In this document: positions 15,139-38,289 of the stretch, piece after piece
Layout: every line of letters starts with the position of its first letter
Numbering within the stretch: position 1 is the stretch's first letter
Assembly: GCA_017643395.1 (NCBI GenBank)
Contig: JAEPNP010000002.1
Span: forward strand, 1-38,289
Reading direction: 5' to 3'
DNA: 38,289 nt
Source of the DNA: Rhodothermales bacterium
GTDB taxonomy: Bacteria; Bacteroidota; Rhodothermia; Rhodothermales; UBA10348
The notes under the pieces: generated by a model
Databases searched by the model: none
Told to the model about the DNA's origin: nothing
Seen by the model: only the letters and a program-made list of their open reading frames with translations
Translations under genes and position numbers: made by a program

Positions 15139-15168
15139 AAAAGGCCCCCTCACAATTGCGAGGAGGCC
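15139..15168 (-). terminator. Terminator of the 15193-17670 gene
   Basis: Minus strand: GGCCTCCTC / GAGGGGGCC, a 9-bp stem with one T.G pair (15168-15143), then TTTT at 15142-15139. 24 bp after the stop. Confidence 0.8.
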
Positions 15169-15192
15169 CCTTCCTGTCATCGGCATCGCTCC

Positions 15193-17670
15193 CTAATCCA
15201 CGATCAGTGGACGGGAGTGTGTGGTCTTGTCCGTGCGCATGCGCACGAAATACAGTCCGGGAGGCAACGACGATACATCCGCCGTGCCTGCAGAAAAGCG
15301 CAACGGCACGCGCCGGCCGCTCACATCGAAGAGTTCGATGCGCTGTACCCGTTCAGAAGGGGGTGGACGCACGTGAATGCGATCGGACGCGGGATTCGGC
15401 CACAGGTCCAGCCCCGGACCCTCGTCCGGCTGCTCGGTCTGCACGCCTGACGCCTCGGTCCAATGGGCCAGAAAGTTGGAAACCTCGGCGCCGGCCTCGT
15501 TGAAGTATCCTCCGACCAGGAAACCTTCCTCCAGAGCCGCGACCGTGGTCACCGTGTTGTCGACTCCCGGCCCGGCGGCCAGCCAGGCCTGGTTGGAGGG
15601 ATCCCAGAGTGCGACCCGACGCGCTTCGCGTCCCCCCGCCTTGGAAAAACTGCCGCCGACTACGAGTCGACCATCCGGGAGCACGGCAAGGGCTCGGCTT
15701 TGGTTGTTCAGGCCTGAACCAAGGGCGGTCCAGGCAAAATCATCGGGGGACCACGCCGCGACAAAATCGGCCCGCTGCCCACCCGCGCGGGAGAACAGTC
15801 CGCCCGCATAGACGCGTCCATCCGGGCCGACCGCGATGGCACGAACCGTGGAATTGAGCCCGGATCCCAGGGTGTACCACACCTCCTGGCCGGCGTGCCA
15901 GCGCGCTATGCCCCTGGCCGCCTGGTGCCCGGCCGTCGAGAAATCGCCGCCGGCATAGATGCTGCCATCGGGACCCATGGCAAGAGCCACCACAGGTCGA
16001 TTGGTGCCACCGCTCATGGACTGCCAGCTGTCGGAGGCTGGATCCCAACGGGCGATGTGATTGAAGCCCACACTGCCCTCCTGCTTGAAATGCCCGCCTG
16101 CGTAGACCTCGCCGTCTTTTCCGACGGCGAGCGCGCGCACGACACCGTGCAGGCCCGCGCCCAGTGGTGACCAGGTCCCATCGGCTGGATCAAACCGTGC
16201 CACAAAAGCGATGGGCGTCGCGCCGACTCTGGTGAAGCTGCCGCCAGCGATCAGCCGGCCCTGGGTGTCGACTGCCAATGCCTCCACGGGCGCATTCGGC
16301 TCGGCATCCATCCGGGTCCAGGTTGCACGAACGGGATCCCAGTGCCCGAGGAAGCGCAGTGTCTCACCGGCGGCTCGGTGGAACTGACCGGCGACCCAGA
16401 ATCCGCCCTTTCGGTCAGAGACCATGGCCGAGACCGGCCCGTCCAGTCCGTTGCCGTCCCGGACAGGCTTCAGGTGATGCCAGCCTGCGTCTCCTTCCCA
16501 GATGGCCACGGCATCTGCAGGCAAGCGGCCGGCCGAAGTGAAAGCCCCACCGACCACCAACCGGCCGTCTGACAGGCTCTCAACGGCCATAACGGTGCTG
16601 TTCGCGCCCTCAAGCAGGGGTTGCCACGTGCGGCTGTCAGGATCCAGCAGCACGATGCCGTTGGCGGCGCTTGAACCCGCTGTCTGGAAGTTTCCTCCGA
16701 CCGCAATGAGCCCGTCCGGACGCGTGAAGAGCACATCGACGCGCCCATTCGGAGCGCTTTCCGGTGCCTGCCAGGATCCGGACTCCGGGTGCCAGATGGC
16801 CAGATAGGGAGCATACTCCCCGCCTGCCCCCTGAAAGAGCCCTCCGACCCAGAGGCGGCCGCTACCGTCAAATGCAAGCGCCCGCCCCATGCTGGAAAGC
16901 CCGACGCCGAGGGACTCCCAACGATCTGCACCGGGATTCCATTTCGCGATCCCGGGCATGAGTGCGGAGCCCGAGCGCGTGAAGTCTCCGGTGGCGTACA
17001 ACTCACCGGAGGGCGAGATCGCGAGGTCTATGACCAGGTTGTCCAGTCCGTCGCCAAACGGCATCCAGGTGCCGGTGGCCAGGTCGAGTCGGGCGATACC
17101 ACGGGCTTCCGTGCCACCAGCCCTGGAGAAGAAGCCCCCCACGATCAGGCCACCGTGGCCGTCTTCGATGATGGAGGACGCGACGTTGTTCAGCCCCCCT
17201 CCGACGGCAGACCATGCCTCGGTCGCGGGATCCCAGCGCGCCAGCGCCGTGGCCGTGCGCCCATCGGCCCGGGTGAACGAGCCGGCGGCGTACAGCATGC
17301 CGTCTGAAGCCACCAGCAGATCCTCCGGCGGGCCGTTGAGTCCATCGCCCATGGGGTGCCAGGTACCCGACTGCAGGTCCCATCGCACGATGTGGCGGGC
17401 CTGGATGCCGCCGGCCATGGTGAAGTTGCCGGCCACGAACACGTCTCGGCCATCGGAAGCCACGGCCGTCACGACGTTCGAGACCCCGTGGTACGGAAAG
17501 GCGAATCCCGACATCCACTCGCCCGCTGTCGGCGCGAGGGTCGCGACCGGACTGTCCAGTGTCAGGGAACGATGCAGAACCGGGTCGTCTGCCGTGTCGA
17601 TCCAGCGGGCGGGCTGAGCGCTGACGGGATTCACCAGGACCGCCGCCACAGCCAGGAGAAATACTCTCAC
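15193..17670 (-). CDS. T9SS-exported 'AGGxF' repeat beta-propeller protein
   Basis: 825 residues. Signal peptide (1-19, ending NPVSAQ), then a short linker and GFAFPYHGVS. About fourteen repeats of ~50 residues follow, each with the pattern YAGGxFTxAGG...ARGIARWDPxTxxWxxLGxGLN, resembling kelch/delta-60-type propeller blades. The C-terminal ~75 residues (from about 750) are a T9SS type A sorting domain of the 'WPNPASDRIHV...LPPGLYFVRM' kind, not the NPFNP kind of its neighbours. It is presumably secreted across the outer membrane, acting as a surface or matrix binding protein; the ligand is unknown. The GTG start overlaps the stop of the giant upstream gene (GTGA), so they are co-translated. 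It is a close paralogue of the 27446-30040 gene. Confidence 0.88.
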   Translation of the reverse strand: MRVFLLAVAAVLVNPVSAQPARWIDTADDPVLHRSLTLDSPVATLAPTAGEWMSGFAFPYHGVSNVVTAVASDGRDVFVAGNFTMAGGIQARHIVRWDLQSGTWHPMGDGLNGPPEDLLVASDGMLYAAGSFTRADGRTATALARWDPATEAWSAVGGGLNNVASSIIEDGHGGLIVGGFFSRAGGTEARGIARLDLATGTWMPFGDGLDNLVIDLAISPSGELYATGDFTRSGSALMPGIAKWNPGADRWESLGVGLSSMGRALAFDGSGRLWVGGLFQGAGGEYAPYLAIWHPESGSWQAPESAPNGRVDVLFTRPDGLIAVGGNFQTAGSSAANGIVLLDPDSRTWQPLLEGANSTVMAVESLSDGRLVVGGAFTSAGRLPADAVAIWEGDAGWHHLKPVRDGNGLDGPVSAMVSDRKGGFWVAGQFHRAAGETLRFLGHWDPVRATWTRMDAEPNAPVEALAVDTQGRLIAGGSFTRVGATPIAFVARFDPADGTWSPLGAGLHGVVRALAVGKDGEVYAGGHFKQEGSVGFNHIARWDPASDSWQSMSGGTNRPVVALAMGPDGSIYAGGDFSTAGHQAARGIARWHAGQEVWYTLGSGLNSTVRAIAVGPDGRVYAGGLFSRAGGQRADFVAAWSPDDFAWTALGSGLNNQSRALAVLPDGRLVVGGSFSKAGGREARRVALWDPSNQAWLAAGPGVDNTVTTVAALEEGFLVGGYFNEAGAEVSNFLAHWTEASGVQTEQPDEGPGLDLWPNPASDRIHVRPPPSERVQRIELFDVSGRRVPLRFSAGTADVSSLPPGLYFVRMRTDKTTHSRPLIVD

Positions 17671-20600
17671 TTGAGCAGCGTCATGGTCTTGGTGACGACC
17701 GCTGCCCCGGTATGGAGTCGGTACAGGTAGGACCCGCTGGCAAGCGCACTCGCATCCAGCCGGACCTCGTGCCAGCCTGCTTGCAGGTTGCCGTCCACCA
17801 GGGTTGCCACGTGGCGCCCCAGTACATCCAACAGCTCCAGCCGAACCTGGTCCGCATTCGGGACCGCAAATCTGATCGATGTCGCCGGATTGAACGGGTT
17901 TGGATGATTCTGGTCCAGTTGTGCCGTCGTCGGAAGTTCTGAAGGTGGCTCATTTGCAACCGAGAGGCTGACGTTGAGCGCGCTCGGGTCGTGCTGCTCC
18001 ACGACGCCTCCCTGGTCTCCCAGAAGGAGTTCTCCGTCGGGCGTCGGCGCCAGCAGCGTCACCAGCGTGGAGCGCAAGGCAAACAGGCCCAGCGTGCCCG
18101 CTCCTCCAGTGAAGGGGGTCTGGTTGACCACAACGCCGTAGCCCCACGCAGTACCATACAGGTCCGGTTGGCCGTCGTTGGCGATATCGCCGCCAAAGGC
18201 CAGCTTGCGGATCTCCGGGGCGACGCCCGTCGGGGTCAGCGAGCCCTGGTTGGCATCAAGTTCTGCCCAGCTGGTGCCGGAGTTGCTCGTTACCCAAATG
18301 CCTCGCGAAGTGCCCGCATACAGGGACCCGTTGGTGCCGAACTCCAGGTCGAAAATGTGGAGGGCATCCTTTGCGGCCATTTCCGTCGCGGACGTCTGAT
18401 CCCAGCTGTAGCCGAAATCAACGGACCGGAAGACCCCGCGCCCGGCCGTGCCGGCATACAACTCTCCGGCATTGCTGGGGTGAGCGACCAACGTCCAGGC
18501 GGTCTCCGCCGAACCCCGCGGAAGTGAGGAGACCTGCTGCCAGTTGGCCCCTCCGTCAAAGGTGCGGAAGACAAGGCCATTGTTGGCCGATAGATACATC
18601 GTGCCGTCGTTGACGTCCTCGGAGATAGAGTACACCAGCAGCCAACTGTTGGTGGTGCCTGGCAGATTGGGCTCGGCCGCCGTCCAGGTTTCGCCCTCAT
18701 CGTCAGAGTAGTAGAGCCCTCCGGAGCCCCAGGCGGCGAGCCACACACGACCCTCGTTGGTGCCGTCATCGTCCAACCAGAGGTCCGCGACATACAGCGG
18801 GTGGGGCAGGCCCTCACCACACTCGTGGTAGGTATCACCCAGGCCCTGCTGGGTGAACAGGTCACCGTCGGGGGCAGGCGTTCGGCACAGCACGGCAGAC
18901 GTGAGACCGGGCGATCCCTGGTACAGGCCGAGCAGCATGCGCTCCAGTCCCGAATCGGGCGTGACCCACTCGGCGGACTGGGCATGCAGCTTTGCGGGAA
19001 TCACAAACGTCTGCCCCACGATCAGCGTGTCTACCGCGATGTTGTTGGAGGCCAGCGGATCCGTGTTCTCGCCGACTGCTGAGATGGTGAAGGCAGTCGT
19101 GTCTGCCAGCGACGTGTTGACCACGCCGTAGAAGACGAGCGTTTCAGTGGCGTCCGCCTGAATCTCGTCCATGGTCCACAGCATGGTACTGCGGTTGAGC
19201 GTGCCTTCGGACTCCACCGGCCCCGTCATGTTGGAACTGCTGTTGGCATCGACCTCGAGCACGCTTGTCAGCGAGGTCAGATTGACCGATGCACACTGTC
19301 CCGTATCCGGGCCGTTGTTGGTCAGATGCACGGTGACTCGTACCGCCTCTCCGGGGTATGAGAGTTCGTCCTCCACGGTGAACTGGGTGATGGCCAGTTC
19401 GGCGGTGACAAAGGCAAAGACCTCAAAGTCCTCCTGGTAGACGGACAGGGGCGGCGTGGTGCCGGTGATGGGAAGCGGCGAGACCTTCAGGCCGGTTACC
19501 GGGGTCGAAAAACTCTCATTGTTGGTAGCATCCAGGCTGATATCAAGGATGTCCGGGTCGCTACAGCTTGCCGGGTCGCCCCCGTCGGCGTAGATCTCGT
19601 AGTTGATGCTGGGATCCACGGTAATGCGGTCCCCGGCGAGGTCGCCGTTCACGTAGATGCCGGGATTGACGCCTGCTGTCGGGTATACCGGGCCACCGCC
19701 TGTATCCAGTTCACCCACGACTACCACGTCGTTGCCGGTGCCCGCATTGATGATCAGGCGTTCGCTCGGGTTGACAAAGTGGTTGGTTTCGCCCAACGTC
19801 GAGGTGAGTCGTGAAGAGCCGTCATTGGAGCCTCCGTTGTCGAGGGTGATGGTTTCCGCACCACCGGTATACGTGAAGGTCGCGACCGTCGCGCTCAGGG
19901 CGAAAGTGACCGGCTCAAGCTCGGAATAGACCACATCCAGCTCGTCGACCGACGCGGTACCAGCGGACGCGCTCGTGTGCACGTTCGAAGTCACGTGGGT
20001 CGGAGCCACCGTGTCGGTGAAGGTGATCTGATCACCCGGATTGGTGCTGACATTGCTGCCACCGACGAACGTGATGGTGGAGTTTGGTCCTGCGGCGGAG
20101 GCGAGATCGACAATCAGGTGATCGTCTCCCGCGCCGCCGTTGAAGGTCAGACCTCCGCTCGGGATGGGGTCTCCCCCGGCCATGTTGACGGTGAGGTCGT
20201 TGTTGCTGGCGTTGCCGGTAAACGTGAACGAGTTCAGTGGCGTGCCGGTGACCTCGAACAAGGTCGTGCCGCCCACGACCAGGCGCAGGTTGCCACCGCT
20301 GATTTCGAAGGTCGGGTTACCGGGGAATCCATCGTCCGGAGCGGTAAACGTGACATCCGCATTGGTGGCCGACAGCACGGACACCTGGTAGTCCTCCACT
20401 TCCCCATCGCTCGCAAAACCGGTGGGGGAGTTGCATGCCATGCTGGTGCTGCAAAAACGGGCTCGCGCGAAATAGGAGCCGGTGGCCTGTGACGCCGGAA
20501 TCGAAAACGGGTACATGGCCGATCCTGTGGCGGCGACCACCGTGTTGTTGGTCAGAATCTCATTGGCGTTGTTGCCGAAGACGCCGTTCGCGTCCCAGTC

Positions 20601-22550
20601 AACCCAGACGCTGAGATAACCGGCGCCGACATTGGTCGCCGTGAAGGAGGCCGTCGTGCCCGTGGCGTCCGACACCAGGGTGTGGGGAAAGACTACCCCG
20701 TCCTCGTCGTCCCCGACCGCATCGTCCCCGTTTGCCGTCGCGTCGTCCCTCGCATCGGGATCGGCGTCCGGCGCCACCGCACCCAGATAGACTGGCGTTC
20801 CGGTCATGTGGCGCGGACCATCATTGGAGATGTCCGTTTCATAGTTGCCGGCTCCCGTCCCGACTCCGGTGTCCGGGGCGTCTCCGAAGTCCACGCCTAT
20901 AATCGTGACGACGTGGTCCTCCACCTCACCATTCGGAGCGTTCTCAGTCGGGTCGTCGCAATCCGTCTGCACCGAACAAATCCGGAAGCGGGCATTGCGG
21001 GTGCCTGCCGAAGTGGTCGGCGGCGTGACGGATAGATTCGTCGATCCGCCGCCCACAGGTCCGGAGAAGAAATCCTCCCCGGCATCCGTAAAGTTGCCGT
21101 CGCTGTCAAAGTCGATCCAGGCGCTCACAAAGGCGCCGCCGCTTGCACTGACGGCGATCACGCCGGGGACGCCAGCTCCCAGGTAGGTGGGCAGAATGAT
21201 CCCTTCGTCGTCGATGCCATTCGTGTCGTCTCCGGTGGCGTTGGGCGCCTGGGTGCCCGACTCCGAGTCGACAGACCCGCTGAAGGTTGCAGCGCCGCTG
21301 ATGATCTCGTGGCGGGGGTCTCCATATCCGACGAGGTCCCCGTAGTCGTACTGGTTGACCGTGTGCGAGGCATAGTCATCCTCACCAGTATTGCCGTTCC
21401 CCGGCGTGGAGTCCCCGTCAAACTGCGCTGAGGCAGCCACATCCGCAATGAGCGTGAAGGTGTGTTGATCACCGAGCGTCGAGGTGAACTGCAGGGTCTC
21501 GGAGCCAGAGCTCGCGACGGCACCCACCGTCCAGATCTGCGTGCCGGTGCTGTGACTTCCCGCGGATGGGGTGAGCACTGGCGCAGTACCACCGAACGGT
21601 GTCGCGTCCAGCTCCGGAATGCTTACGGTCACGCCAGATGCGGCACTGGGCCCATCGTTCGATACCCGAACGGTCATGTCCAGAGCGCCCGTGTCGGGAT
21701 TGTAGCTCACCGCTTCAATGGACAGACGGAGGTCGGCTTCGACGGGAGTCGCCGTCGCGGTTGCCGTGTTGTCCGCGGGATCCGAATCGTGCTGGCTGGC
21801 CGATGTGACGGATACCGAGTTCTGATAGCTGTTGCTGTCCGAAAAGGGGTCGTCCTTTACTTCAGCGGTAAATGTGCAGCTTGCCGACGCCCCCACAATG
21901 AGCCCAGGGTGGGTCATGGTCAGCGAGGCCGAGCCCGCGCCCCCAGTCACGAACCCCACACAGGCACCAAATGTCGTGGTCGCCGGATCGTATCCGGCGG
22001 GCACCGTATCGGTGAGTGTGAAGCCCGTAGACGCCGCAGATTGTGCCCCGTTGTTCTGGTTCAGCACGTCGATCTGGAACGTGACCGTCGGAGAGGCCGG
22101 GGTTGGGCTGGGGTTTGCCGTGATCGACTTGGTCAGCGACAGATCTGCTTCCGTTCCCGTGCCGGTAACCGTGAACGAGAAGGGTGTATTGCCCGCATTC
22201 CCGGACACGATCGTGATGGTGGCTGACCGTGCGCCTACCGCAGTCGGGTCAAACACCACAGTGAAGCTGCCGGCGTTGTTGTCGTAAGGTGGACCCGACG
22301 GCAAGACGGCGGTCACCGTGAACTCCGCTCCATTTGACGTGATCGAGGCGATGTTGAGCGTACCAGCGCCGCCGTTGGTCACGGCGAAGGTGCGCTGCGT
22401 AGGGGTCACAAGGTCGTCGACGTCCTCCGATCCGATAGCCTGCGAGGACCCGTCCGTAACTACCCCGGCGTCCACAAGGATAGTCTGACCGAGCGCCGCG
22501 TACGGCAGAAAGAACGCGCTCAGAACGAGCGAGCAAATGAGTGCCCTCAT
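17667..22550 (-). CDS. Giant multidomain T9SS cargo protein (HYDIN-like, DUF11, GEVED, BNR)
   Basis: 1627 residues. Signal peptide 1-22 (ALGQ). In order: a choice-of-anchor/HYDIN-like Ig domain (about 25-130), two DUF11 domains (about 135-265 and 275-400), two GEVED domains ending GEVEDHVV (about 540) and GEVEDYQV (about 714) with Asp-rich Ca-binding-like loops, then a beta-solenoid-like part with NDLTV/GTGNDVV repeats ending in GGDPASCSDPDILDI (about 987). A third DUF11 (1060-1170) follows, then the FVIPAK-linked two-Cys module (VLC...HECGEGLPHPLY, about 1175-1260), a BNR/sortilin-like propeller (LYYSDDEGETW) and the sorting domain NHPNPFNPATSI (1545-1627). A surface-exposed adhesin or matrix protein is the likeliest role; this is inference. 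It shares its C-terminal half with three neighbours. Confidence 0.9.
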   Translation of the reverse strand: MRALICSLVLSAFFLPYAALGQTILVDAGVVTDGSSQAIGSEDVDDLVTPTQRTFAVTNGGAGTLNIASITSNGAEFTVTAVLPSGPPYDNNAGSFTVVFDPTAVGARSATITIVSGNAGNTPFSFTVTGTGTEADLSLTKSITANPSPTPASPTVTFQIDVLNQNNGAQSAASTGFTLTDTVPAGYDPATTTFGACVGFVTGGAGSASLTMTHPGLIVGASASCTFTAEVKDDPFSDSNSYQNSVSVTSASQHDSDPADNTATATATPVEADLRLSIEAVSYNPDTGALDMTVRVSNDGPSAASGVTVSIPELDATPFGGTAPVLTPSAGSHSTGTQIWTVGAVASSGSETLQFTSTLGDQHTFTLIADVAASAQFDGDSTPGNGNTGEDDYASHTVNQYDYGDLVGYGDPRHEIISGAATFSGSVDSESGTQAPNATGDDTNGIDDEGIILPTYLGAGVPGVIAVSASGGAFVSAWIDFDSDGNFTDAGEDFFSGPVGGGSTNLSVTPPTTSAGTRNARFRICSVQTDCDDPTENAPNGEVEDHVVTIIGVDFGDAPDTGVGTGAGNYETDISNDGPRHMTGTPVYLGAVAPDADPDARDDATANGDDAVGDDEDGVVFPHTLVSDATGTTASFTATNVGAGYLSVWVDWDANGVFGNNANEILTNNTVVAATGSAMYPFSIPASQATGSYFARARFCSTSMACNSPTGFASDGEVEDYQVSVLSATNADVTFTAPDDGFPGNPTFEISGGNLRLVVGGTTLFEVTGTPLNSFTFTGNASNNDLTVNMAGGDPIPSGGLTFNGGAGDDHLIVDLASAAGPNSTITFVGGSNVSTNPGDQITFTDTVAPTHVTSNVHTSASAGTASVDELDVVYSELEPVTFALSATVATFTYTGGAETITLDNGGSNDGSSRLTSTLGETNHFVNPSERLIINAGTGNDVVVVGELDTGGGPVYPTAGVNPGIYVNGDLAGDRITVDPSINYEIYADGGDPASCSDPDILDISLDATNNESFSTPVTGLKVSPLPITGTTPPLSVYQEDFEVFAFVTAELAITQFTVEDELSYPGEAVRVTVHLTNNGPDTGQCASVNLTSLTSVLEVDANSSSNMTGPVESEGTLNRSTMLWTMDEIQADATETLVFYGVVNTSLADTTAFTISAVGENTDPLASNNIAVDTLIVGQTFVIPAKLHAQSAEWVTPDSGLERMLLGLYQGSPGLTSAVLCRTPAPDGDLFTQQGLGDTYHECGEGLPHPLYVADLWLDDDGTNEGRVWLAAWGSGGLYYSDDEGETWTAAEPNLPGTTNSWLLVYSISEDVNDGTMYLSANNGLVFRTFDGGANWQQVSSLPRGSAETAWTLVAHPSNAGELYAGTAGRGVFRSVDFGYSWDQTSATEMAAKDALHIFDLEFGTNGSLYAGTSRGIWVTSNSGTSWAELDANQGSLTPTGVAPEIRKLAFGGDIANDGQPDLYGTAWGYGVVVNQTPFTGGAGTLGLFALRSTLVTLLAPTPDGELLLGDQGGVVEQHDPSALNVSLSVANEPPSELPTTAQLDQNHPNPFNPATSIRFAVPNADQVRLELLDVLGRHVATLVDGNLQAGWHEVRLDASALASGSYLYRLHTGAAVVTKTMTLLK

Positions 22551-22601
22551 TGGCCGGAAGGATTTGGCGGTGGGTGGCGGGCCTTCGGACCGGGGCGCAG
22601 A

Positions 22602-22642: not shown

Positions 22643-22659
22643 ATGAGAACGGGTCAAAA

Positions 22660-22693: not shown

Positions 22694-22728
22694 GCATTTG
22701 TGCCGGAAATCGGGCCCTCGAAAACAGC

Positions 22729-22764
22729 AGACCCCGACCTGCCGGATGAAGCAAGTCGGGGTCT
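22729..22764 (-). terminator. Terminator of the 22844-27199 gene
   Basis: AGACCCCGAC (22729-22738) pairs perfectly with GTCGGGGTCT (22755-22764). In the minus direction it is followed by GCTGTTTTCG. 80 bp after the stop. Confidence 0.8.
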
Positions 22765-22843
22765 GGCCACGTGGGCGTGGCGGGCCTTCCTTAGCGGTGG
22801 GTGGTTAGCGGTGCATAACGGAAGGCCAGAGGGCTATGGCGCC

Positions 22844-27199: not shown

Positions 27200-27379
27200 G
27201 GCTTTCTCAGGATGATGAGCTTGGTGGGTGGATGCCTGGCTTGGGGGCCGGGCCTTCACTCGCTCCTGAGAGCAGATCCGGGCGCTAAGGGGGTGTATAC
27301 ATCGGCGGAGTAGCACAAATGCGCCATGGCAGGCCGCCTGCGCAGACTACCTCCTCCGAGTTGGTATTACGCACGGAAA

Positions 27380-30040: not shown

Positions 30041-30089
30041 ACCGTCAGGGTGCAATCAGAAGACCATGCCCGACCGACTGGGCGGGCCG

Positions 30090-30139: not shown

Positions 30140-33100
30140 CTACTTCATCAGGACCAGCGTGCGCGTGGTCGCGAAGCTTCCGGCATCCAGCCGGTAGACG
30201 TACGTCCCGGTCGGGAGACCGGCCGCGTCGAAGGTGACTTCATGCTGACCGGCATTGATGTGTCCGTCCACCAGCACGCTGACCTCGCGGCCGAGCACGT
30301 CAAAGACGCTCAGACGGACCGTGCCCGACTCCGGAAGTGCAAAGCCGATGGTCGTTACCGGATTGAACGGGTTCGGATAGTTCTGCTCGAGCACGAACCC
30401 TTCCGGCAGTTCGGCCGCGGCGGTGCCGGGCGCATCTTCGGTGGACGTGGACGTGCCCGAGGCCGCCATGTCAAAGCTCACGATGCCCTCACTGGCCGAA
30501 TTCGCGAACACCTGGCCCGTAGTCGAGACCGCCACGAAGCTGACCTGCTGCTCCCTGAGCTGGTACTGCTCAAAGTCCGGCGGCCAGGCCTCCGTCGGGT
30601 TGTTGTTGACAAACACGCCCTGACCCCACGAGGCGGCGTACAGGTTGCCCATCATGTCGAACGACAGATCGCGGATCTCCGGACGACCCTTCCAGTCGTG
30701 GTGCGGGTTGTCGACGTTCGAGTTGACGAACTTCCAGATATCCACGCTCGTCGGGCTCGGGTCATCCAGGCGATAGACACCCTTGCCGGTGCCGGCGAAG
30801 AGGGTCATCATGTCCGGATCGAACTCGAGGTCGAAGATGTGACCGGCCTTGTTGGCAAGCAGCAGGCTGTTGCCTGTCAGCTCCCGCCAGGTGAATCCGT
30901 AGTCATCCGACACGTAGACCCCGTAGCCAAACGTTCCGGCGTAGATGGTGCCAGGCGCCATGGGATGGGCTACCAGGCTCCACGGCGTATCCGCAGAGAC
31001 ACCCGGAAGGCTGCCCACCTGCTGCCAGGTCTCACCCTTGTCCAGGGAGCGGAACAGGTTGCCGTTGTTGGCCGAGATGTAGAGGAAACCGTCCACATCC
31101 TGGGTAATCGCATAGACGTTGCTCCAGGGGCCGTTTCCTGCACCCAGCTGGGCGTGGGCTTTCTCCCAGGTCAGGCCGCCGTTGTCGCTGTAGTAGAGAC
31201 CCGCCCAGCCCCAGCTCGAGAGCCAGATACGGTCCGTCTCCGGATCACGATGCAGGTCGGTGACTACCAGGGGGTACGGCAGGCCGTCGTCGCACGGACG
31301 CCAGCGGTTGCCGAGCCCTACGATGTCATAGCCCTCGTAGTAGAGCTCACCCGTCATGGGATTCGTCGTATCCGGGATGCGGCAGAGCACGGAGGCATCG
31401 ATGCCCGGGGTGCCCTGGAACAGGCCCACGATCATGCGCTCGAGCTGCACGTCAGAGCCCAGGTGCATGTTCGGACCGACCGGACCCAGATTGGTCTTGT
31501 AGAACAGGGCGGACTGGGCCAGAGCCTTCGCCGGGAACGGGAAGGTCGGCTTGATCTGGGCGAGATCCGCGTGGTTGTTCCAGAGTTCCGGATCAGTGGT
31601 GAAGGCCGTCACGTGCTGCTTGTTGAGGTCGCCCACGATCTGTGAGTTGACCACGGCCTTGGCCGTGAATTCAGCCATTTCACCCGGCAGAAGCTTGCGG
31701 ATCACCCAGTCGTCGCGGTCCGGGTCGTTCTCGCCCGCTTTGGTGTCGAACCAGCGCGGCGCAACGTCTGCCAACATGCCCACCGAAGGCGTGCCACCGG
31801 CGTAGACCGAGAGCTTGGGATCCAGGATGTCCGGAACGCTCACGCACTGCGCCTTGTCGTGGCCCAGGTTCGTGACCTTGACCGTGACCTCGATCGCATC
31901 GCCCGGATAGACCATCTTCCACTCCGGATCAACGATCGTCACGATGGATAGGTCGGCCTGGTAGTCGGCCAGCGCCTCGATTCCCGTGTACTCGATGTCG
32001 CCGAAGTGCGTGTAGGGGTGGAACTTGACCGTTCCCATGCCACCGTTCATCTCGCCGAGGCTGGCGATGGTGCCTTTCCAGTCGTCCCGGATGTCCAGCA
32101 CGTCACCGTAGCACATGAGCGGAGCATCACCCTCGACGCGCAGGTCGAAGAGGTCGTGCTTGACCGGGGTGACCACGATGTAGTCGGCGTCGTCGTTGCC
32201 GGCGAGGAGCACGGAGTCGAAGTTGCGGAACGGATTGCCCGCCTGCCCATCGCCCAGGGACTTGTCCAGGCCCTGGAAGTCGATGGTGTCTTCACCCGTT
32301 CCGGCCATGACCTCGATCGAATTCCTTGGGCCGTAGAAGCTTACCTCTTCGGCCTGGTCCGAGTCGATGAAGGAGTAGCCGTCCGCGAAGTAGTCGTCAT
32401 CCTTGATGATGATGTCCTCTGCGCCGCCGTTGAACGCGAATACGCGGTCAGTGGCGAGGATATTGTCGATGATCGGGTCCAGACCACTGTAGAACAGCGT
32501 GCGGTTGATCACCGTCTGGCCGTCGCGCTTGCGTAGCTCGATGGATCCGTCATTGGGCCCATCGAACAGATGCTTGACGCGGTCCCAGCGATCGTTGTTT
32601 TCGCCGAGTTCGACCGTGTCGTGTCCGTCCCCGAGCATCGCCATGAGCGTGCCGACGGGAATCGCGTCCGGATCCACGTAGAGGTAGTCGTCGGCTTTGG
32701 TGCCCATAACGGTGACCCGACCCACGTCCGCGATCGCATCCTGGAAAAGGATGTCCCCGTCCTTGTTGGCGATCACGATGTTGTCTCCGTCTCGAGTGAC
32801 CGAACCGAGCTGGCCGTCAGACTTGACGATCAGGTCCGTGCCCTCGTCCAGGAGGCAGACTACGTAGTCCTCAACCTCACCGCCCGACTTGGCCTTGCCG
32901 GTCGGAACGTCGCATTCGTCCGGCTTGGCGCAGAGGCGGAAGCGCACATTCGCGTTCCTGGTCAGCGTGCCGGGGATTTCCGGCAGCGTGAACGAGACCA
33001 GATTGTCTCCGGGGTTGACCCAGAGGTCATCCACCACGTGCTCGGCTCCGGTCCCGAACTTGTTGTCCTGGATGTTATAGTCGACGAACACATTCAGGTA

Positions 33101-35749
33101 TCCGCCCTTGTTGCCGGCCACATTGGCCACCAGCGTATTCAGCGCGCTGCTGTAGAGCGACTCCTTGCCGTGAGCATCCCGGATCAGGAAGGTGATGCCG
33201 TCTTCGTCGTCACCGTTGCCGTCGAAGTCACCGTCGGTGTCGTCACCGTCAGCATCGGCGGACTCCTGGCCGTCCGGGTCGGAGTCGATCATCTCGCCAA
33301 GGAACAGGTCGGTCAGCGGGTGGCGCGCGGCGTTCGGACCGGCGGTCTGCCCGTCCGTGTCGGCATCGCCGAAATCCAGAGACAGGATCTCGACCTGATA
33401 GTCTTCTACCTCGCCGTCGTCAGCCAGGCCGATGTAGGCGTTGCACATCATGTTGTTGGAACAGATGCGAAGACGCATGAAGGTCTGCTTGGTATTGACG
33501 GAGGTCGGCAGAACCGGCACGTTGATCGTGACGTCGGAGGTATTCGGGACGCCATTGGTGGTCCCGGTCGGCGGCAGGCTTGCGTTGTGGATGGGGTGCT
33601 CGCCCCAATCGTCCCAGTCGCCGTCGTCGTTGAAGTCGATCCAGATGTTGAGCCGAGCCGAGTCAACGGGAGCGGCGTAGCGGATCGAGAACGGCTCGGT
33701 GGTACCCGCAATCAGCGTCAGCGGACTGGGGGCCAGGATGCCGTCCTCATCGTCGGTACCGTCCAGATCGTCGTCTCCGAGGGCCTCGTCACTGGGAGCG
33801 CCGTCGTTGTCCACATCCACCTGGTTACCAAGCATCGGACCCGTCGGCACCAGACGGTGGCGCGCTCCGTTGTCCTCAAGCAGTGTCTTGTATGGCGCCG
33901 GCGCATCGCCGAAGTCCAGTTTCACTACCGTGGCCACGGACATGTCGTTGTCCGGGTTGGTATCGAACTGGTCCACGTGGGCCAACATGGCCGTGTTTAC
34001 AAGGTCATCCTTGATGTCGCAGAAGAACTTGATGCGGAGCTCGCGAGTCTCGCCGCGCAGGATCTTGTTGATCTTCCAGACGGCTGTGTGCTCGTCCGGG
34101 AGCACATCAGGACCACTCGGATCTGCCTGTGTCGGCGGCGTGAAGGCGAACTGCTCATCGTCCAGATTCCAGTACGCGCGGTCGAAGGTCATCTTGTTTG
34201 GATTGTAGATGTCCTTGACGCGCACCCAGGTGGCCGGCTCCGGACCCAGGTTCTTGACCCGGATCACGAACTCGGCGACGCCACGGTCTTTGTCCGCGTC
34301 AAAGGAGACGACCTCCTTGGTGATCTGCAGATCGGCGTTGCCCGCGCCCTCGACCTTGCCTTCCACGATGCCCTGCGGGCTGTGATCGGCGGCAGAGCCG
34401 GTGTCGATGACCTCAGCCTTGATGCCGAAATCGTCGCCGCAGGTGGCACGACCGGAGATTTCGACGAACTCCATGTCGAAGATATCCTTGTGCGGACCGG
34501 CGGGAGCGTCCAGGCTCAGCTTCCATTCCACCGGGAACGGGTAGTAGGCGGCGTGATCCTGCAGGGAAAGATGGGTGCCCATCGGCCCGAAGGGGTTGAC
34601 CGGCACGGCCATGCTCGCGCTGGAGGCGGGATTCATGGAGGCCACCGGCTCGAAGCACCCGTGCGGATCAGACTCGCTGATCAGCACCTTGATGTCGTGT
34701 GAACCGTCAGGGCCAAGGTTGGTGAGCTTGACGCGGAAGCGGATGTCTCCTTTCACCTTGGGCTCGACCTCGAAGAGCTGTTCTATCTCGAAGCCGACGG
34801 CGTTGGTCTTCTCGGAGAAGCTCCCCAACTTGAATACGTTGCCGTCTGGTGTGCGGATCAGCACGGTGTCGTCGGCCTCAATTCCAGGCAGCTGCGTAGC
34901 GACAAAGGTCTGGCCGGCGATGTCCGCGAAGCTCACATCTTCAAACGGCGTGTCCTCCAGGATGACGCCCTCCGCGGTCAATTCTGTGACAATCCTGAAC
35001 GGGCTGCTGACTTGCGAGAAGCGGAGGTCCCGGGTCGGGTCACCGCTGTGCACCGACATGCCGGTTTCCAGGTCAATACGCTGGTTCTGGCCCGCCACCA
35101 TCAACTTCGCCCGAGTCGGATATACCTCAAGCTCCAGATCTGCCTTTGTATTGTGCACCTCGGCCACAGCAGGGCCGTTGTTGGACAGATCCGGATCGAT
35201 GGCACCGATCACCTCGGTGATGCGCGCATTGCCGCTGAACCAGAATTTGGGCTCACACTTGACCTTGCCCTCGACCGTGAACTCCACGTCGTCGTAGGTA
35301 TAGACGTGATTCACATGGGTCGGCGCGCCAAGTGACGCCCCCCATTTGATGGGCAGCTTGAAGTGCGGATCGACGTCCGTGCCGTTGATCTTCTTCACCT
35401 CGAAACACTGCTGGGTGTCGTAGGTGTCGAACCAGACCCACACGGTCGGAGCCGCATCGGGACCCAGGTTGGTCGCAGTGATCGTGAACTCGACCGTTTC
35501 ACCTTTCTTGACCCGCTCCTTGTCCGCCTCGATTTCCACCTGGACGTCAGCCTGCTTCTGGTAGTACTGACCGAACACACTGTCGGCCGTCAGGAGCAGC
35601 GTCAGGAAGACGGAGATGAGAAAGGACAGGACCGGGACGATCCAGCTCGGGCCGGAGCTCTTGCGGGATCGAGGTGCCGGGACCGGTGAGAAGCGCTGAT
35701 AGGGGCTTCCAGCCGAGTATGGGGCACGTGGGGTGTTTGCGGCGTACAT
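30140..35749 (-). CDS. Largest giant T9SS cargo protein (DUF11, GEVED, beta-solenoid, BNR)
   Basis: 1869 residues. The N-terminus is unusual: 35 residues of Pro/Ser/Arg-rich tail (MYAANTPRAP...) precede the hydrophobic segment 36-56 that ends SVFGQ, a long-tailed signal peptide. Several DUF11 domains follow (for example KKGETVEFTITATNLGPDAA near 75-95). Then come two GEVED domains (GEVEDYQV about 776, GEVEDYVV about 953) with dense Asp loops (DVDNDG, DDDLDGTDDEDG), and a beta-solenoid-like part with EGDAPLMCYGDVLDI at about 1206 and GDIEYTGIEAL. Then a DUF11, the FPFPAK-linked two-Cys module (VLCRIP...WRPCDDGLPYPLV, about 1420-1490), a BNR/sortilin-like propeller (LYYSDNGGLTW) and the sorting domain NYPNPFNPVTTI (1785-1869). 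Likely a cell-surface or matrix protein; ligand unknown. Long plus-strand ORFs over it are shadows. Confidence 0.9.
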   Translation of the reverse strand: MYAANTPRAPYSAGSPYQRFSPVPAPRSRKSSGPSWIVPVLSFLISVFLTLLLTADSVFGQYYQKQADVQVEIEADKERVKKGETVEFTITATNLGPDAAPTVWVWFDTYDTQQCFEVKKINGTDVDPHFKLPIKWGASLGAPTHVNHVYTYDDVEFTVEGKVKCEPKFWFSGNARITEVIGAIDPDLSNNGPAVAEVHNTKADLELEVYPTRAKLMVAGQNQRIDLETGMSVHSGDPTRDLRFSQVSSPFRIVTELTAEGVILEDTPFEDVSFADIAGQTFVATQLPGIEADDTVLIRTPDGNVFKLGSFSEKTNAVGFEIEQLFEVEPKVKGDIRFRVKLTNLGPDGSHDIKVLISESDPHGCFEPVASMNPASSASMAVPVNPFGPMGTHLSLQDHAAYYPFPVEWKLSLDAPAGPHKDIFDMEFVEISGRATCGDDFGIKAEVIDTGSAADHSPQGIVEGKVEGAGNADLQITKEVVSFDADKDRGVAEFVIRVKNLGPEPATWVRVKDIYNPNKMTFDRAYWNLDDEQFAFTPPTQADPSGPDVLPDEHTAVWKINKILRGETRELRIKFFCDIKDDLVNTAMLAHVDQFDTNPDNDMSVATVVKLDFGDAPAPYKTLLEDNGARHRLVPTGPMLGNQVDVDNDGAPSDEALGDDDLDGTDDEDGILAPSPLTLIAGTTEPFSIRYAAPVDSARLNIWIDFNDDGDWDDWGEHPIHNASLPPTGTTNGVPNTSDVTINVPVLPTSVNTKQTFMRLRICSNNMMCNAYIGLADDGEVEDYQVEILSLDFGDADTDGQTAGPNAARHPLTDLFLGEMIDSDPDGQESADADGDDTDGDFDGNGDDEDGITFLIRDAHGKESLYSSALNTLVANVAGNKGGYLNVFVDYNIQDNKFGTGAEHVVDDLWVNPGDNLVSFTLPEIPGTLTRNANVRFRLCAKPDECDVPTGKAKSGGEVEDYVVCLLDEGTDLIVKSDGQLGSVTRDGDNIVIANKDGDILFQDAIADVGRVTVMGTKADDYLYVDPDAIPVGTLMAMLGDGHDTVELGENNDRWDRVKHLFDGPNDGSIELRKRDGQTVINRTLFYSGLDPIIDNILATDRVFAFNGGAEDIIIKDDDYFADGYSFIDSDQAEEVSFYGPRNSIEVMAGTGEDTIDFQGLDKSLGDGQAGNPFRNFDSVLLAGNDDADYIVVTPVKHDLFDLRVEGDAPLMCYGDVLDIRDDWKGTIASLGEMNGGMGTVKFHPYTHFGDIEYTGIEALADYQADLSIVTIVDPEWKMVYPGDAIEVTVKVTNLGHDKAQCVSVPDILDPKLSVYAGGTPSVGMLADVAPRWFDTKAGENDPDRDDWVIRKLLPGEMAEFTAKAVVNSQIVGDLNKQHVTAFTTDPELWNNHADLAQIKPTFPFPAKALAQSALFYKTNLGPVGPNMHLGSDVQLERMIVGLFQGTPGIDASVLCRIPDTTNPMTGELYYEGYDIVGLGNRWRPCDDGLPYPLVVTDLHRDPETDRIWLSSWGWAGLYYSDNGGLTWEKAHAQLGAGNGPWSNVYAITQDVDGFLYISANNGNLFRSLDKGETWQQVGSLPGVSADTPWSLVAHPMAPGTIYAGTFGYGVYVSDDYGFTWRELTGNSLLLANKAGHIFDLEFDPDMMTLFAGTGKGVYRLDDPSPTSVDIWKFVNSNVDNPHHDWKGRPEIRDLSFDMMGNLYAASWGQGVFVNNNPTEAWPPDFEQYQLREQQVSFVAVSTTGQVFANSASEGIVSFDMAASGTSTSTEDAPGTAAAELPEGFVLEQNYPNPFNPVTTIGFALPESGTVRLSVFDVLGREVSVLVDGHINAGQHEVTFDAAGLPTGTYVYRLDAGSFATTRTLVLMK

Positions 35750-35889
35750 GGCAGCGAACGGTTATCCGTTGATTAGGTGCACGGCAGGCCACGCAGGGCG
35801 CGCGATCTACCGAACACGGATAACGGAGCCGTTCAGGGCCCTCGGGAGGCCCGTCCGCTCACATGCACAGAAAGTCGGTCACGTCACGA

Positions 35890-35960
35890 TCGGACGTCCG
35901 ACAAGCGAGAATCGGCGTAGAGATATGTCCGGCGTGTTGCAGCCGGATGACCGATTTCTA
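35890..35960 (-). promoter_or_regulatory. Shared intergenic motif region D with 12-bp palindrome
   Basis: Perfect palindrome TCGGACGTCCGA at 35890-35901, built from two face-to-face copies of the motif core GTCCGA. TGTCCGGCGTG at 35926 and GACCGATTTCTA at 35949 are degenerate copies. It lies 140-210 bp upstream of the 35749 start and overlaps the end of the micro-protein at 35958. Confidence 0.4.
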
Positions 35961-36080
35961 ACGGATGAAGGCTGTAATGGCCAGCGCGAACACAGTCAGC
36001 GCAAGCACAAACAGGTCACCGAGACGCAGTCTCGACGCTTCCTGCCGTTTCTTTTCCTTTTGATAAGCTGTTTCCATCAT
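35958..36080 (-). CDS. Single-helix micro-protein (40 aa)
   Basis: 40 residues from an ATG-ATG pair at 36080. Charged N-terminal half (QKEKKRQEASRLRL), then one hydrophobic helix LFVLALTVFALAITAFI (about 23-39), ending in Arg. It overlaps the 3' part of the preceding 66-residue frame by 65 nt in another frame. No homologue recognised. The charge-then-helix layout and its place between two other single-helix frames suggest a real small membrane protein, but coding status is unproven. Confidence 0.45.
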   Translation of the reverse strand: MMETAYQKEKKRQEASRLRLGDLFVLALTVFALAITAFIR

Positions 36081-36216
36081 TCTTGCCCGTGGGTGCGAGC
36101 AGCAGCGCGATCACGAGGAACACGGCACAGATGGCTGCAAGCACGGCATCCACAAGTGGATATCCGGGCGGGTCAGTAGAGGAATGGAGATCCCCTTCAG
36201 TATGTCGGCGGCTCAT
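36016..36216 (-). CDS. Single-helix small protein (66 aa)
   Basis: 66 residues, ATG at 36216. Hydrophilic N-terminus, one hydrophobic helix LVDAVLAAICAVFLVIALLLA (about 21-41), then a Lys/Ser/Gly-rich tail that overlaps the next micro-protein. If the overlap is real, translation of the two may be linked; alternatively one of the two frames is spurious downstream of the helix. Unknown function. It belongs to a trio of small membrane proteins ahead of the giant 35749 gene. Confidence 0.5.
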   Translation of the reverse strand: MSRRHTEGDLHSSTDPPGYPLVDAVLAAICAVFLVIALLLAPTGKNDGNSLSKGKETAGSVETASR

Positions 36217-36327
36217 AACTGAATTGCCTCACTGGAATCGTTCGCGCGGTCCCAGTTCGGCTGACTACGGGGCGGCGTCCGGGGGAAAACGCCGATCCTT
36301 TTTGCGGCTAGTCGAGCTGGGGGGGAC

Positions 36328-36438
36328 CTAGAGGGCGAATAGAGCGCGCTCCACAGCCATAAAGGCAGGAGCGGCCAGCATCGCCATCAGGAGCGCGATC
36401 GTGAACAGATCGGCAATCCAACTTTTACGCTGTTGCAT
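36328..36438 (-). CDS. Single-helix micro-protein (36 aa)
   Basis: 36 residues from the ATG at 36438 (MQQRKSWIADLF start). One helix covers about 9-28 (ADLFTIALLMAMLAAPAFM), with a basic N-terminus. A longer in-frame extension upstream is Pro/Arg-rich, runs through the shared motif and is unlikely. It is the first frame after motif region E. Resembles the 40-residue frame (both have x-A/G-DLF-x-x-AL at the helix start), suggesting duplication. Unknown function. Confidence 0.45.
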   Translation of the reverse strand: MQQRKSWIADLFTIALLMAMLAAPAFMAVERALFAL

Positions 36439-36503
36439 CGGGGTAGTAGCGTGTCTTAATAGGCGTGAGTTAGGTCGCGTTACGGATATATTAACGGGCT
36501 CTG

Positions 36504-36596
36504 TGACCGATTTCGGGGGGCGTGTCCGATTTGTGCTGCGTTTATCTACTGCCTGTTGTCTGTTTTCTGGCGATGGGGTCCGGAGTCTGATTTGTG
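36504..36596 (-). promoter_or_regulatory. Shared intergenic motif, array E
   Basis: TGTCCGATTTGTG at 36523-36535 (identical to the 15046 copy), with TGACCGATTTC at 36504 (19 bp away) and a TCTGATTTGTG at 36586-36596. It starts 10 bp past the terminator of the 36736 gene and lies ahead of the micro-protein trio. TTAATATA at 36484-36491 on the other side could hold a -10. Confidence 0.5.
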
Positions 36597-36605
36597 CCAG
36601 AAAGA

Positions 36606-36635
36606 AGCCCCCGACCGGCATTTCGATCGGGGGCT
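36606..36635 (-). terminator. Terminator of the 36736 gene
   Basis: AGCCCCCGA (36606-36614) pairs perfectly with TCGGGGGCT (36627-36635); the minus-strand tail TCTTTCTGG is only moderately T-rich. 101 bp after the stop. Confidence 0.65.
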
Positions 36636-36735
36636 GAGGGCACAGACGCGTTCGTCGGATGGATAGGTATCGGCCGCTGGCGACGACCGGTGACGTGTGC
36701 GTCGGGGAACGTGCCCAAGTGCATCGGCGGCCTGC

Positions 36736-38289
36736 TTATTTCATGAGCACCAACTGCCTGGTGAACGCGCCTGCCTCGGTCTGCAGGCGATAGAGGTACG
36801 TACCACTAGTCAGACGCCCGGCGTCGAACATGGCCCTGTGCCGGCCGGCCTCCACCACGTCGGAAACCAGAACGGCCACTTCCCTGCCCAGCACATCGTA
36901 TACAGCCAGGTGCACCCGCCCGGTGGTCGGCACATCGAAGCCGATCGTAGTCGACGGATTGAACGGGTTCGGGTAGTTCTGCGCGAGTGCAAATGCGGTC
37001 GGCAGGTCGCGGACCGGTTCAATGGTGGTAGACGTGACTGATCCGGCCGATGGGACCATCTCTACGCCCCCGCCCCGGTTGCCAAGCAGGATATCGCCGT
37101 TTTGCAGCGGCAGAAGCATGCTGACGTACCCCTCTTTCAGGGCAAACTCAACAAAGTCGCGGCTTGGTACGGTGATCGGCGCCGTGTGCTCGAATGCGCC
37201 AAAGCCCCAGCTGCCGACCAGGAGGTCATCGTCCACGTCCTCCTCGTCCGGGTCAAACGCCAGCGTGCGAATCTCCGGGGTGACCACGGTGCCGTTATCC
37301 AGGGTCACGCGGACATCGAGTTCGTCCCACAAACTGACGACCGTTCCGCCTGCATCGAGCGTGATGCGGTAGACGCCCCGACCCGTGCCGGCAAACAGAT
37401 ACTCGTTCGAGTCCGGAGAGAACTCCAGGTCGAACACGTGGCCACCCGACGCATCGATCAGCAAGTCGTTCACGGCGACTCTGCCGAGCGGCTCCCAGGT
37501 GAAGCCATAGTCTTCCGTGTGGTACACGCCCCGCCCGAAGACGCCCGCGTACAGCACGCCCGGCTCTGTTGGGTGTGCGGTCAGGCTCCAGGGCAAATCG
37601 GCGCTGGCGCCCGGCAGCGAAGTCACCTTCTGCCAGCTCGCACCTCGGTCGAACGAGCGGTAGACCGTGCCCGTATTGGCTGACAAGTAGATGATGCCGC
37701 TCGCATCCTCCTCGATGGCGTAGACGGTCGTCCATCCCGGCGTTTCGCCCGGGAAGACAGCGGCCGCGCTGGCGAACGTCTCTCCGAAGTCTGTGGAGTA
37801 GTACAGGCCCTCCGAGCCCCAGGTGGCGGCCCAGACCCAATCGTCCGTCGAGTCCGCGGGCGTGCCCCGACTGTCCAGGAACAGGTCGGTCACGTAGACC
37901 GGATGCGGCAGGCCGGTGCCGCAGGGACGCCAGCGGTTCCCCACGCCAACCTGGGTGAAGAGCACGCCGTCCGGGTCCGGAATGCGGCACAGCACACCCG
38001 TGTTCAGGCCCGGACTGCCTTGCGAAAGGCCCACCAGCACACGCTCCAGCCCGTTCGGCAGGTTCACCTGCAGGGCCGCGACACCATGGCCTTTGGCCGG
38101 GAACGGGAAGGTCGGCAGGAGAGAGACCCGCACGCTGTCGGCGTTGTCCGTCGCAACGGTGTCGACCGAAATTACCAGGCCTGCGTTTTCGGTGGAATCC
38201 GGGGGTACGATCCCCTTCAGCAGCGCGTAGTAGACATCCTGGATGTGCGCATCCATGATGCCGGTGACCTCCATGGTCGCGGTCACGCC
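36736..38289 (-). CDS. C-terminal part of a giant T9SS cargo protein (runs off right edge)
   Basis: About 517 residues are visible; the frame is open at the window edge, so the start is outside. It begins at the end of a DUF11-like domain (TATMEVTG...), then the FPFPAK-linked two-Cys module (GLSQGSPG, VLCRIPDPDG, NRWRPCGTGLPHPVYV), a BNR/sortilin-like propeller (LYYSTDFGETF, VYRSFDRGASW, VYHTEDYGFTW), and the sorting domain NYPNPFNPSTTIGFDV...GREVAVLVSD ending QLVLMK. Same C-terminal architecture as the three other giants; closest by eye to the 30140 gene. Presumably secreted and surface-bound. Confidence 0.9.
   Translation of the reverse strand, partial: GVTATMEVTGIMDAHIQDVYYALLKGIVPPDSTENAGLVISVDTVATDNADSVRVSLLPTFPFPAKGHGVAALQVNLPNGLERVLVGLSQGSPGLNTGVLCRIPDPDGVLFTQVGVGNRWRPCGTGLPHPVYVTDLFLDSRGTPADSTDDWVWAATWGSEGLYYSTDFGETFASAAAVFPGETPGWTTVYAIEEDASGIIYLSANTGTVYRSFDRGASWQKVTSLPGASADLPWSLTAHPTEPGVLYAGVFGRGVYHTEDYGFTWEPLGRVAVNDLLIDASGGHVFDLEFSPDSNEYLFAGTGRGVYRITLDAGGTVVSLWDELDVRVTLDNGTVVTPEIRTLAFDPDEEDVDDDLLVGSWGFGAFEHTAPITVPSRDFVEFALKEGYVSMLLPLQNGDILLGNRGGGVEMVPSAGSVTSTTIEPVRDLPTAFALAQNYPNPFNPSTTIGFDVPTTGRVHLAVYDVLGREVAVLVSDVVEAGRHRAMFDAGRLTSGTYLYRLQTEAGAFTRQLVLMK

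Follow-up and report, generated by a model that had tools for sequence, protein, structure and literature searches.

The window, i.e., the whole 38,289-nucleotide stretch of DNA that was analysed, comprises bases 1-38289 of contig C2 in a 4.5-Mb Rhodothermales genome. Six genes follow each other on its minus strand, in transcription order giant 4 (36736), giant 3 (30140), a Rax2/delta-60 type gene (27446), giant 2 (22844), giant 1 (17667) and a Rax2-type gene (15193), and all six bear T9SS type A tails. The giants with their domains, the Rax2-type genes and the hairpins described below are all found on this strand.

Giant 1 (17667-22550; 1627 aa) is composed of a head with choice-of-anchor-D-like (sub-threshold), DUF11 and GEVED matches, a beta-roll-like plus DUF11 stalk, a propeller and a T9SS type A tail. 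A HYDIN-like head had been proposed in the initial annotation; this assignment rests on the choice_anch_D match, which scores 35 bits at a cut-off of 45. The propeller and sorting domain occupy positions 17670-19022 (Por_Secre_tail match at 17685-17903), with a first blade that harbors two Cys residues at 18762-18965. Giant 2 (22844-27199) has a head that is beta-helix-like by eye, GEVED, the same type of stalk, a propeller and sorting domain at 22847-24376 (Por_Secre_tail match at 22880-23083) and a two-Cys blade 1 at 24047-24295. The listed open reading frame starts at 27316, but the Sec-like signal opens at the internal Met at 27199, which is therefore the likely start. In giant 3 (30140-35749; 1869 aa) a DUF11/GEVED head is followed by the stalk at 31532-32842, where a beta-roll-like part precedes an Ig-like DUF11 part and the Cys codons are found at 32111-32113 and 31844-31846. 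A structure model predicts a seven-bladed propeller (model residues 6-366) at 30461-31543, in which blade 1 spans 31235-31462 with Cys codons at 31382-31384 and 31292-31294; the type A sorting domain resides at 30143-30400 (Por_Secre_tail match at 30152-30379). The window holds the C-terminal part of giant 4, i.e., propeller and T9SS tail (36736-38289), with the two-Cys blade 1 at 37864-38067; the full gene (C2:36736-42399) encodes 1887 aa and has a Calx-beta/DUF11/GEVED head.

The four giants, which had initially been described as an array, are real, but the array does not end at the window: two more giants (C2:42610-47415 and C2:47755-52365), upstream of giant 4, bring the total to six. The two Rax2/delta-60 propeller genes with T9SS tails sit in the same run, one interleaved (27446-30055) and one at the array end (15193-17670). 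They fall outside the family, and each has a counterpart at the matching place in a sister species.

Hairpins that resemble terminators follow giants 2, 3 and 4 and hint at separate transcription of the giants. The candidate after giant 4 (36606-36635, 12-pair stem) was picked up by a consensus scan, which found five hairpins in the stretch vs 0.8 expected. The same kind of scan yielded the candidate after giant 2 (22728-22765), which has a long, 16-pair stem; the stretch scanned around it held six hairpins vs 6.6 expected, i.e., not above chance. Two tRNAs were the only RNA features of the window over the gathering thresholds.

A profile search (E <= 1e-20) identified 12 members of the propeller family in this genome, i.e., the six of the array and six scattered ones (C1:69599, C3:263846, C6:194328, C3:42229, C2:342544 and C2:344294). 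The Cys pair is found in eight of the 12; the four without it are all among the scattered six. Weaker BNR relatives also occur in this genome, e.g., at C1:491532-492389.

The shared C-terminal block and its first blade

In the initial annotation the four window giants were described as sharing one C-terminal order, and this order is borne out in all four genes: an F-x-[FI]-P-A-[KG] stretch, a G[LI]xQGxPG...C...C..GLP stretch, BNR/sortilin-like blades and a type A sorting domain. Chance likeness of the giants can be excluded, because the genome's seven further Cys-type copies share 39-49% identity with giant 3 across the propeller and every one of them matches Por_Secre_tail. The constant block is shared as claimed, but it is longer: BLAST comparison of the heads against each other revealed a common region of ~400 residues (beta-roll-like plus DUF11) before the propeller in nine of the 12 members. 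Two further proteins (C6:194328 and C3:42229) have DUF11 plus the propeller, while that at C2:342544 has the propeller and no Pfam stalk domain.

Alignment of the 12 C-terminal blocks revealed two forms of the propeller start. Eight blocks have the pattern G-x-x-x-G....C[RK]...C-x-x-GLP, and four have a shorter Cys-less blade that ends in W...GL[PT]. In these Cys-less paralogues the blade 1 site is occupied by a blade of canonical pattern, G-[TQ]-x-N/S-x-G-[VIL]-[YLF]-R...W...G. Among 45 members from 11 genomes and six genera (g1, g3, g6, g8, g9 and g10), the Cys form is found in 31 and is absent in 14.

The structure of the giant 3 block was predicted with moderate confidence (13-row alignment, mean pLDDT 73.4, pTM 0.64). 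Strands at residues 14-23, 38-46, 57-60 and 85-88, the last three of which come from the two-Cys stretch, are read as the four strands of a first blade; further blades follow on to residue 362 and then a seven-stranded tail. The pLDDT is under 50 for residues 65-83, between the Cys residues, and for a disordered linker after the propeller (block residues 365-384). A structural aligner fitted residues 6/7-366 to single 7-bladed rings at Z about 26-27, e.g., virginiamycin B lyase (2z2o: Z 27.0, rmsd 2.8, 279 aligned) and RACK1-type ribosomal propellers. GH74 enzymes are level with these rings (Z about 27), and a propeller fold in common with other proteins is no evidence of function. When blade profiles were compared, 12 of the 15 pairs among blades 2-7 matched at 82-98% probability and three at 27-64%. 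The Cys-form blade 1 matched none of blades 2-7 (below 1% probability in six of six comparisons), while the Cys-less form gave weak matches to other blades (13-58%, E 1e-4 to 2e-3); both alignments inspected were in register. The Cys-form blade is read as a diverged first blade, and on the basis of the model and the Cys-less paralogues the two-Cys stretch is most likely blade 1 of one 7-bladed Asp-box propeller rather than a separate domain.

The Cys residues themselves were counted in 46 rows picked by the propeller profile. Both blade Cys residues are present in 32 rows, neither in 14 and one alone in none, with a spacing of 16-37 residues; these counts refer to sequences, not evolutionary events. 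They include L076 and L079, in which a simple blade regex missed the pair, and leave out the window part of giant 4 and L053_12729 (the same gene as L052_1), both fragments of counted genes, as well as L059 (both Cys present) and G013:C47 (cut by the contig end). A second pair is found in the stalk; one of its Cys residues lies where the beta-roll-like part ends, the other in DUF11. Both are present in 20 of the 46 rows, the second with the first displaced in one (L079), and neither in 25, of which four are without any stalk region. In 11 Cys-form rows of g3, g6, g8 and g10 the blade pair is kept without the stalk pair; L085_7179 among them has no stalk, and the ten others have two different common Cys columns, seven columns apart. 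The blade pair is thus independent of the stalk pair, which fits each being its own disulfide. A tree of 45 rows was computed after removal of the blade-1 columns; it is unrooted and leaves out the giant 4 window part, L053_12729 and the cut row L080. In it, all Cys-form rows lie on one side of a single branch (98/99), so that one gain or one loss is enough to explain it. In the predicted secondary structure the blade Cys residues sit on neighboring strands C and D, and the sequence data suggest that they form a disulfide.

The initial annotation had treated the two-Cys stretch as a module of its own, and there are two alternatives to the above readings. If the stretch were a small domain in its own right and of a novel kind, i.e., a constant stalk module before the propeller, this would agree with its position outside every best-scoring Pfam and NCBIfam stretch, with the failure of the Cys form to match other blades by profile and with the variable Cys spacing around a loop modelled at low confidence. 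This idea is very unlikely, because the model and its fit to 7-bladed rings use the two-Cys strands, without which the propeller would be one blade short, and because the Cys-less paralogues show a shorter, more ordinary blade at the same site; it lost ground with the model, the fold alignment and the paralogue comparison, while the Cys-form blade profiles found nothing. The other alternative concerns the role of the Cys residues. Exposed Cys pairs of surface proteins can bind metal or haem or join neighbors, and on this general ground the pair could form no intrachain disulfide but bind a metal or haem or link neighboring proteins into a layer. Nothing in the present results favors such a role, which we regard as very unlikely: each pair is kept or lost as a unit, in the blade and (apart from the one displaced first Cys) in the stalk, as intrachain disulfides would be, and the blade Cys residues are on adjoining predicted strands. 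Joint keeping or loss of a pair is also expected of a metal site.

Stalk, heads and descent

The stalk was modelled at pLDDT 76.7 and pTM 0.77, with a strand-rich first part and an Ig-like second part. The first part resembles RTX/serralysin-type rolls at Z about 7-8, a likeness too weak for an assignment to that type, and a Foldseek search with the stalk model gave nothing at E <= 0.001. The second part resembles the fibrillar-adhesin domain 9ifr (Z 8.2, rmsd 3.1, 106 aligned, 23% identity), and other Ig-like folds tie with it. GEVED and DUF11 are over the cut-off in all four window giants, as is Calx-beta in giant 4. The heads are diverse: beta-helix-like by eye in giant 2 (where Pfam matches are sub-threshold only), C3:263846 and C2:344294; Calx-beta in 36736, 42610, 47755 and C1:69599; DUF11/GEVED in giants 1 and 3; and a CCP_MauG diheme peroxidase in C3:42229, of the Cys-less branch, which has a counterpart in the sister species G001. 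Little or no head is found in C6:194328 and C2:342544, while a relative in genome G002 has Ig-like, NHL, Peptidase_M10 (matrixin-like) and TIG matches.

The genome contains 130 T9SS sorting-domain matches (E <= 0.001), so that such a tail does not set the family apart. All four window giants score above the TIGR04183 cut-off, at 27-36 bits vs 23. In the genome search Por_Secre_tail was over the Pfam cut-off in 12 of 12 members, while in protein scans P0001, P0013 and P0015 were just below it; 30 of the 31 members scanned from other genomes matched, Cys-less ones included, and the missing one is presumably L083, the tail of which is cut by a contig end. A PorU gene is present (NF033707, 963 bits, cut-off 420). 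At the N-terminus, a simple pattern found a hydrophobic stretch ending in a Q-type motif in 11 of the 12 members, the CCP member being unmatched. According to PMC5837995 the Q-rule is limited to Bacteroidetes and does not cover the entire FCB group, so that this motif is only suggestive for the giants.

In G001 an island in the same order contains counterparts of giants 47755, 42610, 36736 and 30140 and of both Rax2-type proteins (46-50% identity); on either side of it, the G001 genes correspond to those at window positions 13072-14915 and immediately past C2:52365. Counterparts of giants 2 and 1 are absent from the island. The island thus predates the split of the two species, with a gain of two giants in the present genome or their loss in G001. 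In the tree, 42610, 36736 and 30140 each pair with their G001 counterpart at 100% bootstrap; 47755 does not pair with L053_3006, so that this pairing rests on position, and the positions of giants 1 and 2 in the tree are uncertain owing to long branches. Direct repeats of at least 40 bases within 15000-38289 are of two kinds only: a stretch that codes for the sorting domain (five copies, 62-72% relative to the reference) and a short segment of a blade (three copies, 67-74%). Recent tandem duplication or gene conversion was rejected, as these repeats are few and diverged and most array members group with sister-species counterparts.

Seven counterpart pairs have comparable heads. The propellers are 63-90% identical and the heads 33-75%, with the propeller higher in seven of seven; the sorting tails are more identical than the propellers in two of these pairs. 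Heads follow orthologues in five pairs (59-75% identical, vs 31-38% in four paralogue pairs), and therefore a cassette of exchangeable heads is not supported. The two ambiguous cases are 42610 (33%) and 47755 (48%, vs 50% to its own-genome paralogue C1:69599).

Array sizes vary: this genome has six giants in a row and G001 has four, three g3 genomes and one g6 genome have pairs, and the Cys form occurs singly in genomes of g8, g9 and g10. Multi-gene arrays, the constancy of which was one of the checks proposed in the initial annotation, are thus common but not obligatory. Other checks proposed there concern the two-Cys stretch. No best-scoring Pfam or NCBIfam stretch covers it, and when 244 genomes of the class were searched with a profile of this stretch alone, as suggested, 34 matches turned up in 11 of them, every one in the window's family. 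Propeller sequence follows in 33 of the 34 (32 of the 46 rows plus L059), and the 34th, G013:C47, ends at the contig end after the start of its propeller match; together with the absence of a covering Pfam/NCBIfam stretch, this means that the family holds together. This class search is the one independent test of the association between stretch and propeller, the 46 rows having been picked by the propeller profile. As to the tails of the 34 matches, L080 and G013:C47 break off before the tail and L083 within it, and the other 31 end in or align with a 93-102 aa tail.

With the propeller profile (E <= 1e-20), members were found in 11 of the 27 genomes of the window's family and in none of the other 87 of the 114 genomes searched in the order. 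A thin first look at 394 phylum genomes gave six positives, all in the window's family, and the two-Cys-only profile again found only this family among the 394. The phylum searches scored five (propeller profile) or 15 (two-Cys profile) candidates per genome in 394 genomes from a larger group, while the class search scored 24; weak relatives outside the family may be missed because few candidates were scored and the 394 genomes are a subset. In a scan of named genomes, nine of ten loci were in Rhodothermales or OFTM201 MAGs, and the tenth (Gemmatimonadales) matches query residues 158-268 only; the named relatives are MAGs labelled Rhodothermales or Bacteroidota. Among 72,556 plasmid records 15 match, all under 60% identity and none covering 80% of the query, and the five listed span query residues 66-310 at most; the idea of plasmid-borne relatives was rejected. 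In the genomes searched, the family is restricted to one Rhodothermales family. No published description of it was found in the open journal literature searched.

Interpretation and comparison with known systems

The giants belong to a genuine paralogous family of large T9SS cargo proteins that is coherent and confined to one lineage, and the analysis supports the initial picture of paralogues that combine sorting domains and a constant C-terminal block with diverse heads. With a probability of about two in three, they are surface fibrillar adhesins or display proteins on a common pedestal, with the two-Cys stretch as blade 1. The computations establish the order of the domains, the sorting domain, the PorU gene, the concordance of the Cys residues and their one-sided place in the tree, the synteny and, in the genomes searched, the restriction to one family; the propeller ring is a prediction, and surface location, cleavage, orientation, disulfide and adhesion are inferred as follows. 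Sec would export the giant first, via its signal-like N-terminus, and T9SS would then export it through the type A C-terminal domain. Cleavage by PorU would fall in the disordered linker that follows directly on the propeller, and PorU would also fix the protein to the surface; PMC8545088 describes attachment of cargo to the surface by the PorU reaction in Porphyromonas. After attachment the propeller would be the membrane-proximal base, in which the blade Cys pair would most likely be a cross-strand disulfide stiffening the blade beside the ring closure. In most members the beta-roll-like/DUF11 stalk would be a spacer above the propeller, with the N-terminal head outermost. This head is of the beta-helix-like, Calx-beta or DUF11/GEVED kind, while two relatives have a diheme peroxidase or a matrixin-like domain there. 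The enzyme-like heads (CCP_MauG, Peptidase_M10) fit badly with a pure adhesin role.

The propeller could instead be an enzyme or lectin (GH74/F510_1955-like), the proteins being glycan-degrading or glycan-binding rather than adhesins on a passive pedestal. Indeed, when solved structures were searched by sequence, BNR glycosyl hydrolases and GH74-type enzymes matched best (3b7f, E 7.2e-23; 2ebs, E 1e-15), and GH74 propellers align with the model as noted above. However, GH74 enzymes work with two propellers while one is predicted in the giants, the columns invariant across the 12 own-genome blocks are mostly Gly, Trp and Pro, and three window giants reach 45-49 bits against the F510_1955 glycosylhydrolase NF045728 with a cut-off of 175 (giant 2 was not listed), which makes this alternative unlikely. 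Membership in the Sortilin/VPS10 family is another matter of partial likeness: this domain is a 10-bladed propeller plus 10CC with 446 positions, and several members pass the PF15902 score cut-off of 33 (e.g., P0001 36.9, P0004 46 and P0013 42.4 bits), but their best stretches span only about positions 2-118 of 446 and the model reads as seven blades. A reading of the propeller-plus-CTD proteins as accessory T9SS or attachment parts, not cargo, takes its force from PorZ (5m11), which has this same order and is the top Foldseek match (E 6.3e-14). The TM-score on the query is 0.46 and the rmsd 19.7, the modelled block has one propeller plus CTD rather than two consecutive propellers plus CTD as PorZ does (PMC5121618), and twelve paralogues, mostly with long diverse heads, together with 16 of 27 same-family genomes without a strong match, are unlike a secretion component. 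A PorZ-like role is therefore highly improbable.

Within the preferred reading of surface-displayed T9SS cargo, the pedestal may have a more specific role. We tentatively consider a one-family display platform, to which we give a low probability, where a disulfide-locked propeller pedestal is reused under unrelated passengers and is possibly read by a dedicated surface partner beyond the generic T9SS tail. The passengers may be beta-helix-like, Calx-beta, GEVED/DUF11 or matrixin-like protease domains and, in the Cys-less branch, a diheme peroxidase. The family is in any case a clean example of a T9SS-rich lineage building giant, probably surface-displayed proteins, with old paralogues in a syntenic island and a constant C-terminal block better conserved than the heads. 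Its first blade gained or lost a Cys pair as a unit, and such a blade can pass for a new domain.

Compared with known systems, the giants resemble T9SS type A cargo (TIGR04183/PF18962) in the signal-like N-terminus, the C-terminal sorting domain and the presence of PorU in the genome, with export and attachment of the giants as predictions. With fibrillar adhesins (DUF11/GEVED/Calx-beta) they have in common the Pfam stalk and head families, a long chain and a C-terminal surface signal. GEVED (PF20009) was defined in fibrillar-adhesin work, where DUF11 is named among the stalk repeats (PMC10952558), and the combination that defines such adhesins, i.e., stalk-type domains plus a surface-anchoring signal, is found here, with the anchoring read from the sorting domain. 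In contrast to these adhesins, the giants have a BNR-type propeller between stalk and sorting domain, and the heads of some relatives are enzyme-like. PorZ of Porphyromonas gingivalis also has a beta-propeller followed by a T9SS C-terminal domain, but is described as a secretion component with two 7-bladed propellers (PMC5121618), whereas one ring is predicted in the giants. Asp-box blades, propeller sequence and fold link the giants to BNR/Asp-box propellers (GH74 xyloglucanases, 3b7f, sortilin Vps10 and Ycf48), from which they differ in the single predicted 7-bladed ring, in family matches that are partial or sub-threshold and in the Cys pair that replaces the Asp-box in blade 1. On the best reading the protein type, i.e., surface-displayed, adhesin-like T9SS cargo, is already known, and what is new is the lineage-restricted family.

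CCP_MauG and matrixin heads

On contig C3 of the same genome (C3:42229-45840, corresponding to L049:1729-5340), one member of the family is composed, in order, of CCP_MauG (diheme cytochrome c peroxidase), DUF11, the propeller in its Cys-less form and the T9SS tail. The same fusion is also found in the sister species (G001, L090:2599-6402), and this protein is possibly a haem enzyme displayed on the surface. In a relative's genome (G002), one family member (L076:5176-12000) has Big_5, NHL, Peptidase_M10 (matrixin) and TIG matches upstream of the shared C-terminal block; its frame has no 5' boundary within the stretch examined.

Other genes of the window and T9SS tails genome-wide

Two genes within the run of giants (window 15193-17670 and 27446-30055) encode Rax2/delta-60 propeller T9SS proteins, both of which have sister-species counterparts at the same places, with 46-50% identity. 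At window 8523-11641, a Peptidase S46 gene (585 bits) is followed by that of a 301-aa protein, which may be a truncated duplicate, as its match to the S46 model (65 bits) is confined to the C-terminal portion. Por_Secre_tail matches number 130 across the 4.5-Mb genome. Another cluster of these is found on contig C1, at ~492-530 kb, and includes a 5721-aa open frame (C1:509649).

Cysteine columns in related genera

The stalk Cys pair is absent from ten Cys-form rows of L082, L083, L084, L085, L086, L087 and L088 (genomes of genera g3, g6, g8 and g10) in the 46-row family alignment. The same ten rows all harbor two other Cys columns, 846 and 853, seven apart, which possibly form a different local disulfide.
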